Positions 2,752 to 26,418 of a DNA stretch of 40,787 nt are shown here, piece by piece. How positions within the stretch are numbered: position 1 is the stretch's first letter; every line of letters starts with the position of its first letter. Source of the stretch: Planctomycetota bacterium (lineage in GTDB: Bacteria; Planctomycetota; Phycisphaerae; Tepidisphaerales; Tepidisphaeraceae); the NCBI GenBank assembly GCA_039182125.1, contig JBCDCH010000033.1, forward strand, positions 1-40,787, written 5' to 3'. The notes beneath the pieces were generated by a model, which was given only the letters and a program-made list of their open reading frames with translations, was not told the origin of the DNA and made no database searches. Made by a program: the position numbers and the translations under genes.

Positions 2752-3882
2752 ATGCCCGAGTACGCCCGATCCACACCCAAAGCCGATTCCCTGCCGTTGG
2801 CCGGCGGTCGCAAGGCCGCCCTGCAGCGCCTGCACGCCATCGACCCGGTCCGTTATGCCAAGACTCGCAACGGCCTTGACGGTGACGCGACACGGTTATC
2901 GGCCTACCTCCGCCACGGCTGCCTGAGCCTCGCCGAGTGCCGCGACCACGCGTTGCAGAACCACAAACGGCATCAGGTCGAGAAGTTCATCAACGAGCTC
3001 GGCTGGCGGGATTTCTACCAGCGGGTGTGGGACCATGTGGGCGACAAGGTGTGGAAGGACCTGGAGCCGTGGAAGACCGGGCATGGGCCGGGCGATTATG
3101 CGGACGAGTTGCCCGAGGACATCCTGAACGCCGAGACCGGCGTTGATTGGGTCGACCACTTCGCCCGCGAGCTCCACGAGACGGGCTACCTGCACAATCA
3201 CGCCCGCATGTGGATCGCCGCCTACGTCGTCCACGCCCGGCGCGTGAAATGGCAAGCCGGTGCCGAATGGTTCCTCGAACACCTGCTCGACGGTGACGAG
3301 GCGAGCAACAGCCTCTCGTGGCAGTGGGTCGCGAGCACCTTCAGCCACAAGCCCTACATTGCCAACCGCGGCAACGTGGTGAAGTACAGCGGCGACCGCT
3401 TCGACACCCACGCCAAGAACGACCCCACCGACAAAAGCTACGAACAGCTCAACGACGATTACTTCACGAACGGCGAAGGCGGCGACGGGCAGAACGTGAA
3501 CTGGAAGGTCGATGTCGAGCCGAGCCAGCAGACGACCAGCGGCGACGTCGCCCTCGTCTGGGACGACGCCCTGCGCGAGACCAACCCCGCGCTCGAAGCC
3601 ACCGGCGGCAAAGGCGTCTTCATGTGGAACGCCAACGGTTGGACCGACAAGCGCAAGACCTTCGTCGATCAATGCCTGGCCGAACTGCCCGGCGTCGAGG
3701 TCGTCGACGAGTTGCCCAATGCGAAACTCGTCACCCTCCGCAGCCCCGACCCGGCCCACAAAAAGCTCGTCGAGCAGCACCACATCGCCGTCATCGACGA
3801 CGAACCCTTCGCGGCTATCGACGGCGTCGTCGACCTCAAACGATTCTCGCGCTACTGGAACAAAGCCAAGAAAGTGGTGTGA
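2752..3882 (+). CDS. Photolyase/cryptochrome-like FAD-binding protein lacking the usual N-terminal domain
   Basis: Residues 20-210 match the helical FAD-binding domain of the DNA photolyase/cryptochrome family: the FINELGWRDFYQRVW segment (79-93), the flavin-pocket segment RMWIAAYVVHARR (152-164), LLDGDEASNSLSWQWVASTF (178-197) and PYIANRGNVVKYS. The usual N-terminal alpha/beta antenna domain is absent; the protein begins almost at the FAD domain. Instead residues 264-376 form an alpha/beta-like tail whose opening, VALVWDDALRETNPAL, resembles the photolyase N-terminal opening LVWFRRDLRL-DNPAL. The likely role is light-driven DNA repair or photoreception. The start at 2752 follows GGGAGGG at 2738-2744; an ATT-type start at 2692 (20 residues longer) is possible but would run into the divergent promoter region. 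Family membership is secure, exact activity is not. Confidence 0.85.
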   Translation: MPEYARSTPKADSLPLAGGRKAALQRLHAIDPVRYAKTRNGLDGDATRLSAYLRHGCLSLAECRDHALQNHKRHQVEKFINELGWRDFYQRVWDHVGDKVWKDLEPWKTGHGPGDYADELPEDILNAETGVDWVDHFARELHETGYLHNHARMWIAAYVVHARRVKWQAGAEWFLEHLLDGDEASNSLSWQWVASTFSHKPYIANRGNVVKYSGDRFDTHAKNDPTDKSYEQLNDDYFTNGEGGDGQNVNWKVDVEPSQQTTSGDVALVWDDALRETNPALEATGGKGVFMWNANGWTDKRKTFVDQCLAELPGVEVVDELPNAKLVTLRSPDPAHKKLVEQHHIAVIDDEPFAAIDGVVDLKRFSRYWNKAKKVV

Positions 3883-8856: not shown

Positions 8857-11766
8857 ATGGCAACGAGCGCGCCCGATCCGACCAAATCCATCCGCGTCCG
8901 TGGGGCGGCCGAGCACAATCTCAAATCGATCGACCTCGACATCCCCCGCGACAAGCTCACCGTCGTGACCGGGCTCTCGGGCAGTGGCAAGTCGACGCTC
9001 GCGTTCGACACGGTCTACGCCGAGGGGCAACGCAAGTACATGGAGTCGCTGAGCGCATACGCCCGGCAGTTCCTGGATCAGCTGCAGAAGCCGGACATCG
9101 AGAGCATCGACGGCCTGCCGCCGACGATCGCCATCGAGCAGCGCGGCTCCTCGCACAACCCGCGCTCCACCGTCGCGACCACGACGGAGATCTACGACTA
9201 CCTGCGCGTGCTCTTCGCGCGGGCGGGGACTCCGCACTGCTGGGAATGTGGGCGGGTGATCTCTTCGCAGTCGCCGAGCCAGATCGTCGATGACGTGATG
9301 AAACGACCCGCCAAGACCAAGCTCATGGTCATGGCCCCTCTGGTTTCGCAGCAGAAGGGCGAGCATAAGGAAACCTTCGGCGCGATCGTCAAGCAGGGCT
9401 TCGTCCGCGCCCGCGTCGACGGCGAGATCATCGACATCAAGGACGGCGACTTCCCCAAGCTCGCCAAGACCTACAAGCACGACATCGCCGCCGTGGTGGA
9501 TCGCATCGTGCTGAAGGACGAGATCCGCTCCCGCCTGGCCGACAGCGTCGAGACGGCCCTGCAACTCACGCGCGGCAACGTGATCATCACCGTCGAGGAA
9601 GATGGCGAGTGGGTCGACCACCTCTACTCCGAGCACTTCGCTTGCCCGGACCATCCGCATGTGAGTTTGCCCGAGCTCGAGCCGCGGCTGTTTTCGTTCA
9701 ACTCACCGCAGGGCGCTTGCGAGTCTTGCCACGGTTTGGGCACGACGTTCAAGTTCGACCCGGACATGGTCGTGCCCGACCCGGACCTGTCGCTGGAGAA
9801 CGGCGCGGTCGAAGGCTGGCGGCGTAACGGCAAGCGGATGAACATCTACTACGCCCGGGTGCTGCGGACCTTCTGCCGGGAGTTCGGCGTGGACTACCAC
9901 GCGCCGTTCAAGGACATGACCAAGGCACAGAAGGACGCCTTGCTCTTCGGCACCAACAAGAAGGGCATGCGGTTCGAGGGCGTCATCCCGAACTTGCAAC
10001 GCCGCTTCGAGTCGACGGATTCCGACTACGTCAAGCAACGGCTCAACAGCTACATGTCCGAGCAGCCGTGTCCGCAGTGCAATGGCAAGCGGCTGAAGAC
10101 CGACGCGCTCTCGGTCCGGCTCAACAGCACCGGCGAGAAGCCCGCCAAAGCCCCCAAGGGCGACACGACCAAACTGCCGGGCCATTCCATCGATGACCTG
10201 ACCCGCATGAACGTCGTCGATGCGCTCGAGTTCTTCGACAACCTCCGTCTCAGCGAGGAGGGCGAACTGATCGCCGCGCCGATCCGCAAGGAAGTCGCCT
10301 CACGCCTCGGCTTTCTCAACGACGTCGGACTCGGCTACCTCAATCTCGCCCGAAAGACCGGCTCCCTCTCCGGCGGGGAAGCCCAGCGCATCCGCCTTGC
10401 CACCCAGGTCGGCTCCAAACTCGTCGGCGTCTGCTACGTCCTCGACGAACCGACCATCGGCCTGCACCAGCGTGACAACGACCGACTGATCAACACGCTG
10501 CTCGCCCTGCGCGACATCGGCAACACCGTGCTCATGGTCGAGCACGACGAGGACTGCATCCGCGCCGCCGACCACCTCATCGACATCGGCCCCGCCGCCG
10601 GTGCCCACGGCGGCAACGTCGTCGCCCAGGGCGACATGCCGGGCGTGCTCACGCAGAACCACTCGGTCACCGTTCAATACCTCACCGGCGAGAAGTTCAT
10701 CGCCACCCCCGAGCAACGCCGTAAGCTCGACAGGAAGAAGTGCATCGAGGTTAAAGGCGCGAAAGCCAACAACCTCAAGGACGTCTCGGCCAAGTTCCCC
10801 CTCGGTGGCTTCGTCTGCGTCACCGGCGTCTCGGGCTCCGGTAAATCCACGCTCGTCAACCAGACGCTGCTCCCCGCGCTCAAGCGCAAGGTCTACGGCT
10901 CCCGCGTCAAACCCGGCCAACACAAGTCGCTCACCGGCGCCGGTCAGGTCGACAAGGTCATCGAGATCGACCAGTCGCCCATCGGCCGCACCCCGCGCTC
11001 CAACCCCGCGACCTACACCGGCAGCTTCGACGAAATCCGCAAGGTGTTTTCGCAAACCCGCGAGTCCAAGCTCCGCGGCTACAAGCCCGGCCGGTTCTCG
11101 TTCAACGTCAAGGGCGGCCGGTGCGAGGCGTGCCAGGGGCAGGGCCAGAAGCTCATCGAGATGCACTTCCTGCCCGACGTGTACGTCGAGTGCGAAGCTT
11201 GCCACGGGGCCCGCTACAACCCCGAGACGCTGGAGGTGAAGTACCGCGGCAAGTCCATCGCCGACATCCTCGCGATGACCATCGAGGAGGCCTGCGAGTT
11301 CTTCGAGAACTTCCCCGCGATCCATCGCATGCTCAAAGCGCTCAACGACGTCGGCCTCGGCTACGTCCGCCTCGGCCAGCCCTCCACCCAGCTCTCCGGC
11401 GGCGAGGCCCAGCGCGTCAAGCTCGCCAGCGAGCTCGGCAAGAACCCGACGGGCCACACGTTCTACGTCCTCGACGAACCCACCACCGGCCTGCACTTCG
11501 AGGACATCCGAAAGCTCCTCGACGTGCTCGATCGCCTGGCCGATCTGGGCAACACGGTCCTGGTCATCGAGCACAACCTCGACGTGATCAAGTGTGCCGA
11601 CTGGATCATCGACCTCGGCCCCGAGGGCGGCGACGGCGGCGGGACGATCATCGCCGAAGGCACTCCCGAGGACGTGGCCAAGCTGACCAAGGCGAGCTTC
11701 ACGGCCAAGTACCTGGCCCCGATGCTGGCCAAGCGATCCAAGCCCAAACACAAAGCATCGGCGTAA
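8857..11766 (+). CDS. uvrA: Excinuclease ABC subunit A
   Basis: The damage-recognition ATPase of nucleotide excision repair; a dimer that loads UvrB onto lesions. At 969 residues it is slightly longer than the usual 940. The first Walker A is GLSGSGKS (39-46), followed by [19 protein letters not shown]; the first ABC signature is [15 protein letters not shown] with [12 protein letters not shown]. The second Walker A is [13 protein letters not shown] and the second signature [15 protein letters not shown] with [13 protein letters not shown]. Zinc-binding cysteine pairs are visible at CESCHG, CPQCNG and CEACQG...CEACHG. The product is complete with all catalytic motifs. It stands after the polysaccharide cluster with its own probable promoter, and a second epimerase follows 9 bp downstream. 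Very secure. Confidence 0.98.
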
Positions 11767-23293: not shown

Positions 23294-24028
23294 TCAGACC
23301 CCCACCGTCGTCCCGATCGTCTCGCCCTTGACGACCTTGAGAATGTTCCCGGGAACGCCCATGTCGAAGACGATGACCGGCATCTCGCGTTCCTCGCACA
23401 TGGTGAACGCGGCCATGTCCATGACCTTGAGCCGCTTGTCGATCGCTTCGGTGTAGGTGAGGTTGTCGAACCGCTTGGCGTCGGGGTTGGTCTTGGGGTC
23501 GCAGTCATAAATGCCATCGACCTTGGTCGCTTTGAGCAGGGCGTCCGCTTCGATCTCGGCGGCGCGGAGTGCGGCGCAGGTGTCGGTGGTAAAGAACGGG
23601 TTGCCCGTGCCGGCCGCGAGGATGATCGCCCGGCCCTTTTCCAGGTGCCGGATCGCCTTGCGACGGATGAACGGCTCGCACACTCGGCTGATGCTGATTG
23701 CCGACATCACCCGGACACTCATCTCGTCGCCGGGGTACAACGTCTCCATCGTCTCCTGCAGGGCCAGTGCGTTGATGACCGTCCCGAGCATGCCCATGTA
23801 GTCGGCGGTGGTACGGGGGAAGGTGCCGTCCTGGGTGAATTGGGCACCGCGGATGAAGTTGCCGCCGCCACAGACGATCGCGAGCTCCGCGCCGGCCTTC
23901 TGCACGTCGACGCACTGCTGGGCGATCTTGTGGAGCTGGTCCCGATCAATACCGAAGCCGCCTTCGCCCGAGAGGGATTCGCCGGAGATTTTCAGCAACA
24001 CGCGGTTGTACTTGATCGGATGGTCCAT
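23294..24028 (-). CDS. pyrH: UMP kinase
   Basis: A 244-residue kinase of the amino acid kinase fold that phosphorylates UMP to UDP. YNRVLLKISGESLSGEGGFGID is the ATP-site opening, AIVCGGGNFIRGAQF the phosphate loop, MGMLGTVINALALQETME the UMP-binding helix, and AGTGNPFFTTDTCAALRAAEIEADALLKATKVDGIYDCDPKTNPDAKRFD is very characteristic. Length is normal. It heads a minus-strand series with frr and diverges from aroK. Confidence 0.98.
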   Translation of the reverse strand: MDHPIKYNRVLLKISGESLSGEGGFGIDRDQLHKIAQQCVDVQKAGAELAIVCGGGNFIRGAQFTQDGTFPRTTADYMGMLGTVINALALQETMETLYPGDEMSVRVMSAISISRVCEPFIRRKAIRHLEKGRAIILAAGTGNPFFTTDTCAALRAAEIEADALLKATKVDGIYDCDPKTNPDAKRFDNLTYTEAIDKRLKVMDMAAFTMCEEREMPVIVFDMGVPGNILKVVKGETIGTTVGV

Positions 24029-24102
24029 GGCCGAATGGTAGCGAAAGGGACGATGGCGGGAACCAAGCCCGTTTCGGCAGACGGCGACCGCTACTGTGGT
24101 GC

Positions 24103-24612
24103 ATGCGACCCATTCTCATCGGATATCGCGGTAGCGGAAAGACGACCGTCGGCCGACTGTTGGCCGAGCGGTTGGGCTGCGGCTGGGTCGACACCGACGC
24201 GATCATCGAGCAGGACGCCGGCCGAACCGTCGTCGAACTGTTCGAGGACGAGGGCGAAGCACTGTTCCGAGACCGCGAAGGCGACGCACTGCGTGAGGCG
24301 TTGCAGATGCCCGAGACCATCATCAGCCTCGGCGGCGGGGCGGTGACGTTCGAGCCGAGCCGTGAGATGCTCAAGCTCTCCGATCGGCCGCGGGTGTATC
24401 TGCAATGTACGGTCGAAGAACTCGCCCGCCGGATCGAGACCGACACGTTCAAACGCCCCGCGCTACACGGCACCGACGCCGCGAGTGAAGTCGCAACCGT
24501 GCTCGAGCAACGCCTTCACCTTTACGATGCCGTCGCGACCCACACGATCGACGTGACCCACCACACCCCCGAGCACATCGTGACACAGATCGAGCGGTTG
24601 CTGCGACAGTGA
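24103..24612 (+). CDS. aroK: Shikimate kinase
   Basis: A 169-residue enzyme that phosphorylates shikimate in the aromatic amino acid pathway. PILIGYRGSGKTTVGRLLAERLGCGWVDTDAIIE carries Walker A (GYRGSGKTT) and the DxD substrate motif, ISLGGGAVTFEPSREML is the shikimate-binding GGG motif, and VYLQCTVEELARRI precedes the lid. Length is standard. The REP-type palindrome begins 12 nt after its stop. Confidence 0.96.
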   Translation: MRPILIGYRGSGKTTVGRLLAERLGCGWVDTDAIIEQDAGRTVVELFEDEGEALFRDREGDALREALQMPETIISLGGGAVTFEPSREMLKLSDRPRVYLQCTVEELARRIETDTFKRPALHGTDAASEVATVLEQRLHLYDAVATHTIDVTHHTPEHIVTQIERLLRQ

Positions 24613-24623
24613 GAATGCACCAA

Positions 24624-24647
24624 GCAGCCGGGCGATTACATCGCCCT
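24624..24647 (+). repeat. REP-like palindrome, left copy
   Basis: Contains the perfect hairpin GGGCGAT-TAC-ATCGCCC (24630-24646). All 24 bases recur as the exact reverse complement at 25197-25220, on the other side of the Y1-transposase-like gene. Confidence 0.85.
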
Positions 24648-24699
24648 GGCCACGACGGCTCCGTTTGACACGGAAACGACCGAACCGAGACTGAGCTCG

Positions 24700-25185
24700 A
24701 TGCGTCGCCGCATGATCACGCTCCACGCTTACGGCACATGGATGCCCGATAAGCCGAAGGGTTTTGCCCATCGGCAACACGGACTTCTTCCGACAAACCG
24801 AGGTCTCGCCGGTGCCTACCGCAAGAATCAAGCCGAAGCGACCGTCTACCTCAACGGCGACATGCAGCGAATGTTGATCGAATCGAGCTTGGACTCGATG
24901 GGTTTTCTCGACACGACCCCACTCGTCATCGCAACCGAGCCGACGCATCTTCACATCGTTTTCGCATGGGGTCATGAACGCGATGGTGCTGCTCTCGCGC
25001 GGTCGATTCGCTTACGATTGACGCGAGACTTGAATTTGGCGTGGGGACGACGGGCAGCTTGGTGGACGGCGAAGGGTCGGCTCTCGCCGGTGAAGGATGA
25101 TGCGCACCTCGCGTACCTTCGGTCGGAGTACCTGCCGAGCCACCGTGGGTGGAAGTGGGACGGCGAGCGTGGGCTGTATCGGTAG
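24700..25185 (+). mobile_element. Y1 (RAYT/IS200-like) transposase-type gene
   Basis: A 161-residue protein. It has an HUH motif in EPTHLHIVFAWGHE (His-Leu-His near residues 87-89) and a C-terminal catalytic-type tyrosine in YLRSEYLPSHRGWKW; the opening MITLHAYGTWMPDKPKGFAHRQHG is typical of planctomycete Y1-transposase-like proteins. Such enzymes nick single-stranded DNA at hairpins. The gene is bracketed by two inverted copies of a small palindrome, the layout of REP-associated transposases (RAYTs). It is intact and single-copy here. Activity is unproven; the alternative is a domesticated member with a housekeeping role. Confidence 0.8.
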
Positions 25186-25196
25186 TCGTCGCGGCG

Positions 25197-25220
25197 AGGG
25201 CGATGTAATCGCCCGGCTGC
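25197..25220 (-). repeat. REP-like palindrome, right copy
   Basis: Exact reverse complement of 24624-24647, with the perfect hairpin GGGCGAT-GTA-ATCGCCC at 25198-25214, 12 nt after the transposase-like gene. Confidence 0.85.
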
Positions 25221-25266
25221 TGGGCTGCGATCGCCAAGTGGCGGAGATTGGCTACGCTGTTCCCCC

Positions 25267-26418
25267 TTGCCCGCGTTCGACCTCATCCTCGCTGCTTTCG
25301 TCTTCGCCTTCGGGGCGTGCATTGGGTCGTTTTTGAATGTCGTCGTTTACCGGCTGCCGGTGGGGAAGTCGCTCGGTGGGTTTTCGCATTGTCCGAGTTG
25401 TGATCATCGGCTCGGGCCGCTCGATAACATCCCGATCCTCGGTTGGCCGTCGCTCGGTGGGAAGTGCCGGTATTGCAAGACGCCGTTCAGTGTGCGGTAT
25501 CCGTTGGTCGAGCTCATCACGGCGCTGCTGTTTCTCGGGTACTGGCTGGCGTTGACGCGGTTCGGACTGGGGCCGGCGTTGTGCGAGGTGGTGGTTGATC
25601 CGATCCGTGGGAACACGACAGCTTTCACGACGCTCGGCGATGTGCCGCTCGAAGCCGCCTGGCCGATCCTCGTGATGGTGCTGTTGCTCGTCGCGGTGCT
25701 GCTCGCGGCGTCGTTGATTGACGCGGAGCACTTCATCATCCCGCTGGAGCTGCCGTACTTCGTCGGTGTCGTCGGGCTGCTGGTGCATGTGTTGGCCGAC
25801 TCGGCGGACCTGCCGGGGAATCTGCTGATCGACGGCGTTTGGGCCAACGCCGCGTTCGGCGGGACGGTCGGGCTGCTGGTGTCGATCGCCTTGCTGAAAG
25901 CGGGTGTGTTCAAGGTGAGTTTCGCGGACGATGCTCCGCCGATCGAGGTGGGCGGTGACGACGCGCCCGAGCCGTGGCCGGCGTCGAAGGTGCGTGCGGA
26001 GATCCGCCACGAGATCGTGTTCCTGCTGCCGCCGATCCTCGCGGCGACGGTCGGCTACTTCCTGCCAAGCTTCGATCTGCCGACGTGGGCCCAAGCATTC
26101 GCCGGCGTCCTGCTCGGCGCCCTCGCCGGCGGCGGGGTCGTCTGGGTCATCCGCATCCTCGGCAGCTACGGCTTCGGCAAGGAGGCGATGGGCTTGGGCG
26201 ACGTGCATCTGATGGTCGGCGTGGGGGCGTGTTTGGGCTGGTGGCCGACGGTTGTGGCGTTTTTCCTCGCGCCGTTCTTCGCGCTCCCGTTGACCGGGGC
26301 GGTCTGGCTTTTCACGGGCAAACGCCATCTGCCGTTCGGCCCGTACCTCGCGGCCGGCACGGCGGCGGTGATCCTGCTTTGGCAGCCGATCGGGCAATAT
26401 CTGATGGTGCTCTGCTAG
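25267..26418 (+). CDS. pilD: Prepilin peptidase (type IV leader peptidase/N-methyltransferase)
   Basis: A 383-residue membrane aspartyl protease that cleaves and methylates type IV pilin-like or type II secretion pseudopilin precursors. The N-terminal domain has GSFLNVVVYRLP and four zinc-type cysteines (42, 45, 67, 70; CPSC and CRYC). The catalytic aspartates are Asp152 in SLIDAEHFIIP and Asp312 in GLGDVHLM. Several membrane helices follow, as usual. It is about 100 residues longer than typical members because of an insertion at about 205-270 carrying an acidic loop (SFADDAPPIEVGGDDAPEPWP) and an extra helix. The start is TTG at 25267. Confidence 0.93.
   Translation: MPAFDLILAAFVFAFGACIGSFLNVVVYRLPVGKSLGGFSHCPSCDHRLGPLDNIPILGWPSLGGKCRYCKTPFSVRYPLVELITALLFLGYWLALTRFGLGPALCEVVVDPIRGNTTAFTTLGDVPLEAAWPILVMVLLLVAVLLAASLIDAEHFIIPLELPYFVGVVGLLVHVLADSADLPGNLLIDGVWANAAFGGTVGLLVSIALLKAGVFKVSFADDAPPIEVGGDDAPEPWPASKVRAEIRHEIVFLLPPILAATVGYFLPSFDLPTWAQAFAGVLLGALAGGGVVWVIRILGSYGFGKEAMGLGDVHLMVGVGACLGWWPTVVAFFLAPFFALPLTGAVWLFTGKRHLPFGPYLAAGTAAVILLWQPIGQYLMVLC

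Follow-up and report, generated by a model that had tools for sequence, protein, structure and literature searches.

The 40,787-nt stretch of planctomycete DNA analysed here (the window, which is contig C33 of a 4.13-Mb genome in 131 contigs) carries at 24620–25224 a small unit that we read with high confidence as a REPtron, in which a single-copy gene for a HUH/Y1 single-strand DNA transposase, similar to the REP-associated tyrosine transposases (RAYTs), is enclosed by both inverted arms of a REPIN (a hairpin-forming doublet of repetitive extragenic palindromes, REPs). This reading draws on the gene and the modelled fold of its product, on the two arms and their dispersal through the genome alone and as REPINs, on the specificity of arms for genes, and on empty sites in relatives. 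The unit most likely belongs to a known kind of selfish repeat system, REP/RAYT, and its enzyme probably cuts DNA. A preliminary description of this DNA had proposed a REP/RAYT-type element, and the dispersed palindromes, the modelled Y1-transposase fold and the gene-specific palindromes in relatives now support that proposal.

The gene is flanked by 41-nt inverted repeats that are 90% complementary, one at 24620–24660 on the forward strand and an inverted copy at 25184–25224 on the reverse strand. They are longer than the exact inverted 24-bp copies noted earlier on either side of a HUH-motif protein, an observation borne out here with a 161-aa frame; the 24 bp are contained in a core, GCAGCCGGGCGATTACATCGCCCT, that is identical in the two arms. 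From inverted-repeat searches, DNA folding and pair counts over nine genomic copies, the left arm is made up of a foot (GCAG, 24624–24627), a hairpin (CC-GGGCGAT-TAC-ATCGCCC-(bulged T)-GG, 24628–24649) and a tail, and the right arm has its foot at 25217–25220 on the reverse strand and its hairpin at 25195–25216. When folded as single-stranded DNA, the left arm leaves GCAG unpaired in front of a hairpin whose stem has a bulged T (−10.9 kcal/mol, z −3.5), and the right arm folds less well (−8.8 kcal/mol, z −2.8). The window has exactly two copies of GGGCGATNNNATCGCCC, one in each flank of the gene, and at 2 mismatches this sequence has three matches compared to a shuffle mean of 0.41, with none of 100 shuffles reaching three. 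The best inverted match between the upstream and downstream flanks scored 29, and 159 mismatched flank pairs used as a control had a median of 9, a 95% level of 12 and a maximum of 20. Chance can be excluded for the arms, since their score exceeds the control maximum and a 23-base pattern was found at eight places genome-wide (≤3 mismatches) as opposed to none for the reversed pattern.

An extended pattern gave ten genomic matches at the same threshold, nine of them at 0–1 mismatch, and again none in the control. The nine copies comprise the gene's own pair, three gene-less inverted pairs (C5:50772/50852, C31:35505/35544 and C53:12602/12677, where C denotes a contig) and a singleton at C76:11058. 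The dispersal of the palindrome suggested in the preliminary description is found in this genome, with pairs and a solitary copy away from the gene. Foot-to-foot spans of the gene-less pairs are 111 bp (C5), 70 bp (C31) and 106 bp (C53), and all three pairs are located between likely genes as judged by open frames and GC content at third codon positions (GC3), with weaker open frames overlapping them. Each folds as a long hairpin, with z scores of −7.1, −10.0 and −9.6, respectively. By architecture these pairs, which share both arms with the gene locus, are REPINs, and the gene thus occupies the interior of a REPIN.

Across the nine copies 98.8% of stem cells pair. The stem closes with T-A in five copies and with C-G in four, a two-sided change seen in none of six slid controls, and the four cells changed on both sides were reached by 2 of 500 shuffles. 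The foot is GYAG in every copy (GCAG in six, both gene arms included, and GTAG in three), preceded by A in 8/8 paired arms and by G in the singleton. No copy of this REP family (family A) at ≤2 mismatches was found in a search of 25 further genomes from the host's family, and at 3 mismatches those genomes had 14 places, spread over nine of them, compared to three for the reversed control. A match at C112:6717 with 3 mismatches was discounted as chance, and a palindrome at C5:54348 (GCAGCCGGGCGATTCGATCGCCCGGCTGT, locus L006, 1501–1530) was not counted as a copy because it is without the TGGCC tail of the REP; it may be a terminator, or a double-foot REP left by the collapse of a pair.

Two further HUH genes in this genome have palindromes of their own. 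The paralogue search called for in the preliminary description returned a single gene at E ≤1, C77:9899 (36% identity), which has a different palindrome with core CCCCGCACAACGTGCGGAAGGC on both sides, and an inverted pair of this palindrome is found on each side of the paralogue (locus L010, 1421–2038). A third HUH gene on C28 (about 9090–9690; locus L097, 1091–1690) encodes PDHVHLL and YIESNP, the latter being the Y---NP motif. Upstream of it is a GTAG-footed palindrome, GTAGCGGTGCGACGAAGTCGCC, with a changed copy downstream, and this palindrome has 11 genomic matches at ≤3 mismatches, one being the family A singleton, and forms an inverted pair at C13:17749/17789. With three HUH genes and three palindrome families, each enzyme has its own hairpin family, and a genome with three such pairs offers material on the co-evolution of enzyme and hairpin.

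The gene itself runs from an ATG at 24700 to a stop at 25183–25185 on the forward strand and encodes a RAYT-like protein of 161 aa that belongs to a clade defined here by a Y-x-x-x-H motif. A T-H-L-H motif is found at residues 82–85, with the HUH codons for H83-L84-H85 at 24946–24954, and Y144-L-P-S-H148, containing the putative catalytic tyrosine and a histidine four residues after it (Y+4), is encoded at 25129–25143; the spacing from H85 to Y144 is 59 residues. In a 15-row alignment of relatives (A4), H83, H85, W90, Y144, H148 and G150 are invariant in 15/15 rows. Pfam Y1_Tnp (PF01797) was matched at E ≤1 by 11 of the 15 aligned members (best 1.1e-4), and at the same threshold the NCBIfam IS200 model was matched by ten and REP_Tyr_transpos by three.

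The AlphaFold model from the 15-row alignment has a mean confidence (pLDDT) of 86.8 and a pTM of 0.80, with residues 11–50 weaker and residues 16–21 and 23–25 below 50. Foldseek with this model returned 27 PDB chains at E ≤0.001, all of them IS200-type transposases or TnpA-REP (4er8), with E values of 3.1e-5 for IS608 TnpA and 5.0e-5 for E. coli TnpA-REP. The best 12 rows from VIA (Z 13.1–14.0, 1.6–2.1 Å over 98–102 residues) were TnpA of IS608, ISDra2, Sulfolobus or IS200; 4er8 came out at Z 10.7 (2.5 Å over 118 residues), a value also reached by Thg1. The Thg1 fold (Z up to 10.7) and the parvovirus nuclease folds (Z 8.2–8.6) were set aside for a Y1 transposase because of its better Foldseek ranks and the HUH and tyrosine motifs. 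A profile search of PDB sequences gave nothing at E ≤10, and the fold evidence therefore rests on the predicted model, by which the protein has a Y1-transposase fold. Plasmid and phage collections gave no match at E ≤0.01.

To place the protein among its relatives, we used a tree of 67 rows and 168 columns. Duplicate loci (L054–L057, L156, L171 and L174), L107 and L108 (which repeat L084 and L088), and matches with E >1e-5 or spanning under about 110 residues were left out of the motif rows, and the tree additionally omits the broken locus L159. Twenty-four rows, all with Y-x-x-x-H, fall into a single group (support 100/99); the clade label comes from the motif itself and the tree from all 168 columns. 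Twelve of these rows are named as Planctomycetota, and the others come from the genome studied here or from its class or family. Both the histidine at Y+4 and a (T/S)-H-x-H motif are present in 24/24 rows, as is the tyrosine. Rows outside the clade mostly have NHxH and a glutamine four or five residues after the tyrosine; a separate group of six rows has Y---NP in the five long enough to show the motif. A distant Y1-like gene from a metagenome-assembled genome of Myxococcales (L115, around 2780–3680; YVHRH) also has a histidine at Y+4, yet it is placed outside the 24-row group. Long GC-rich repeat arrays flank this gene, those on one side being inverted relative to those on the other (134 nt, score 107).

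In this tree the Y-x-x-x-H clade stands as a distinct branch, and its protein branch, active-site signature and foot are new; our search of the open-access literature turned up neither the Y-x-x-x-H type nor RAYTs from Phycisphaerae. The residue that the histidine replaces is a metal ligand in known enzymes, and a third histidine is used by the relaxase/Rep HUH enzymes. We propose that H148 may likewise act as a third metal ligand, next to H83 and H85. According to the account in PMC6006769, the corresponding residues Q131 (IS608) and N119 (TnpA-REP) are essential for transposition, and the clade would then carry a natural substitution at such a position. Whether these proteins make up a separate Planctomycetota class of REP transposases, with His for Asn/Gln, an all-His site (H83, H85, H148), an NYAGC foot and, in contrast to earlier-described REPtrons, insertion of whole REP-gene-REP units at new sites, is a suggestion we make tentatively, as it seems to us somewhat less probable than its opposite.

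The association of palindromes with the gene extends to other genomes. Inverted flank matches exceed the 95% control level at 30 of 41 relatives' loci, each with its own sequence; the palindrome is therefore neither limited to two copies in this genome, where there are nine, nor without a link to the gene in relatives. A scan of ±250 bp around 21 clade genes gave 61 hairpins with a stem of at least 7, compared to 3.2 on average and at most 6 in 20 mononucleotide shuffles, though not all 61 need be REPs. The word [CT]AGC precedes hairpins 50 times within ±300 bp of clade genes, and nine permuted words do so 2–12 times; a tenth, AG[CT]C, was found 41 times and is the same signal, shifted. The class 3 foot C[CT]GA was found only 3 times. 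A foot and hairpin were found together at 18 of the 21 genes. Of 53 bases preceding [CT]AGC, 27 are A, 17 are T and 9 are G, which makes the clade foot NYAGC and not strict GTRG. In genome G198 the REP of its own gene is found at 16 places as opposed to five for the reversed pattern, and it forms three close inverted pairs, of which two are located at the gene. The complete genome ZRK32 (CP066225) has 46 REP-like places at ≤3 mismatches, 22 of them exact, and none in the control. Many of the ZRK32 copies read have a common leader like CTCAA(A/G). TnpA-REP enzymes are described as having CA or CT cleavage sites (PMC8266576), and the frequent CA(A) before the foot resembles these, a likeness we offer as a lead only.

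The unit is located between two forward-strand genes that we take from their sequences to be an aroK-like shikimate kinase gene (24103–24612, the left flank) and a pilD-like prepilin peptidase gene (25267–26418, the right flank). Among 40 relatives searched, 29 pilD loci were examined, of which 17 had both genes and 12 had no aroK match and were not used. In the 17, the gap from aroK to the projected pilD start is −3 to 228 bp (median 59) with no HUH gene between, and in the window it is 654 bp, 605 of which are the element. Since the two genes are adjacent without the HUH gene in these relatives, the unit was inserted. This shows at least one arrival as a whole unit, by transposition or by transfer, and it provides an empty-site case for the arrival of a whole REPtron. 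The relatives are distant (peptidase identity about 37–48%), and the insertion boundaries are therefore approximate.

In the mechanism that we propose, the arms would fold into hairpins once the DNA is single-stranded, for example on the lagging-strand template, and the enzyme would bind the hairpin together with the GYAG foot. Y144 would then cut beside the foot, forming a 5′-phosphotyrosine, and the enzyme could rejoin the cut ends elsewhere. The short REPINs, having the same two arms and no gene, would be mobilised products, and the gene-bearing unit would have come once into the aroK–pilD interval.

Several results weigh against a REPtron. Nine copies is low, as REPs are usually present in more than 100 copies per genome (PMC2817692). 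Only one stem pair changes on both sides, a value reached by 315 of 500 shuffles, and in the right arm the inner of the two outer stem pairs is broken, with the loss of one pair. Scanned alone, the window protein has no Pfam, PHROG or NCBIfam match at E ≤1. The CCCCGCACAACGTGCGGAAGGC palindrome has no copy beyond its paralogue, with 3/3 genomic matches at ≤3 mismatches beside that gene. Among relatives, 11 of the 41 loci do not exceed the 95% control level (clade member L089 among them), inverted flank scores are only 7–12 at 5 of the 14 clade loci from the collection scan (L102, L109, L111, L112 and L114), and no foot and hairpin were found for L094, L103 and L112; L094 and L103 nonetheless have flanking palindromes. 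In ZRK32 (L114) the gene has two REPs next to it in direct orientation, where the window genome has inverted pairs, and none of the 30 copies read of the 46 has an inverted partner within 260 bp, so that they seem solitary. The low inverted scores at the five clade loci are in line with such an arrangement.

The ZRK32 arrangement would also suit an ordinary IS200/IS605-type insertion sequence (IS), whose ends are the palindromes, whose unit is autonomous, and whose internal-deletion derivatives (miniature inverted-repeat transposable elements) are the gene-less pairs, as the ends of IS608 are reportedly in direct orientation. The best fold matches being the TnpA proteins of IS608 and ISDra2, the insertion between aroK and pilD, and the two arms common to the gene-less pairs fit such an element as well. 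An active IS would, however, leave near-identical copies, and this gene is single-copy with only the 36% paralogue, which has other palindromes. The arms, moreover, are inverted and footed and are found in gene-less pairs and once alone, and the genome has three HUH genes with three palindrome families, and we consider an ordinary IS quite improbable. It is unlikely, too, that the protein is a domesticated host enzyme with a cellular role (single-strand DNA processing, for example) and the REPs passive relics. The gene is patchy for such a role, with any match in only 15 of 26 genomes of the family and clade proteins only in its own genome, G307, G312, G313 and G303, and in G313 a stop interrupts the gene. 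It is also absent from the same site in the 17 relatives, and its GC3 is 0.69 as opposed to 0.80 and 0.86 for its neighbours. That the palindromes are unrelated intergenic hairpins (terminators or protein-binding sites) with a gene between them by chance is an idea that the intergenic position of the gene-less pairs by open-frame reading and the 11 loci without a flank match above the 95% level would allow. It is already strongly disfavoured and has a very slim chance of being right, given the 30 loci that exceed that level each with its own sequence, the 61 hairpins compared to 3.2 in shuffles, and the lack of family A copies at ≤2 mismatches in the 25 family genomes. The terminator reading was also rejected at the arms, where there was no terminator-like match, and an Rfam scan of 24000–25900 gave no match at the gathering threshold.

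Taken as a REPtron, the unit is most like the RAYT/TnpA-REP enzymes of class 2 (E. coli 4er8), with which it shares the HUH/Y1 fold, a single gene between inverted footed hairpins, a bulged stem, and a REP family of its own dispersed as inverted pairs. Class 2 is described by Y---NP, mostly NHxH or DHxH, and a GT(A/G)G foot (PMC6006769). The window protein differs in having YLPSH, with the clade-wide histidine at Y+4, and T-H-L-H, and there are only nine REP copies. The foot departs from GT(A/G)G less clearly: it reads GYAG in this genome, with GTAG in three of the nine copies, and NYAG across the clade, and some GTAG families are described as including GYAG variants (PMC3733652). The divergence of the planctomycete family asserted in the preliminary description holds, as its tyrosine signature is not that of known RAYT groups. 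Class 3 HuH-Y proteins, as described by Quentin 2018 (PMC6006769), are mainly from Planctomycetes, Acidobacteria and Proteobacteria, with the signature NHVH, W[TA], Y----Q and a CnGA foot. The present system is similar in phylum, an extended conserved N-terminal region, non-canonical flanking hairpins and REPtron-like behaviour. Compared with that published description, however, the clade is marked by (T/S)HxH and Y---H with an NYAGC foot and stands as a separate group of 24 rows, the window protein has THLH and YLPSH, the foot is GYAG and not CnGA in 9/9 copies, and rows with a class-3-like motif fall outside the group.

The IS200/IS605 TnpA proteins (IS608, ISDra2) share hairpin ends with this unit and are its best fold matches, and they differ from it in that the gene is not multicopy here, the arms are inverted and footed, and the residue at Y+4 is a histidine where IS608 has Gln131 (PMC6006769). 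In TIRtrons (Di Nocera 2013, PMC3733652) inverted repeats, some of which are dispersed, likewise enclose a RAYT-like gene; most of these terminal inverted repeats are described as unrelated to GTAG REPs, as opposed to the footed REP arms found here. RAYTs flanked by two inverted REPs were, by the criteria of one study, found only in gammaproteobacteria (PMC2817692), and GTAG repeats are reported in Planctomycetes, with R. baltica hosting several REP families (PMC3733652). Most work on REPIN/RAYT systems has concerned Gammaproteobacteria, and our results extend these systems to a protein branch of planctomycetes; a scan of the window protein by itself against three standard libraries misses this branch.

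Some relatives of the gene appear to be decaying, as L159 (G313:C194), which is clade-like, has one internal stop and L163 (G301:C19), which is class-3-like, has four. At L089 (1539–3353, reverse strand; G185:C2) a single open frame of 605 residues runs through the clade gene and a downstream protein that is presumably aminotransferase-like, and this may be a fusion or a mere read-through frame.
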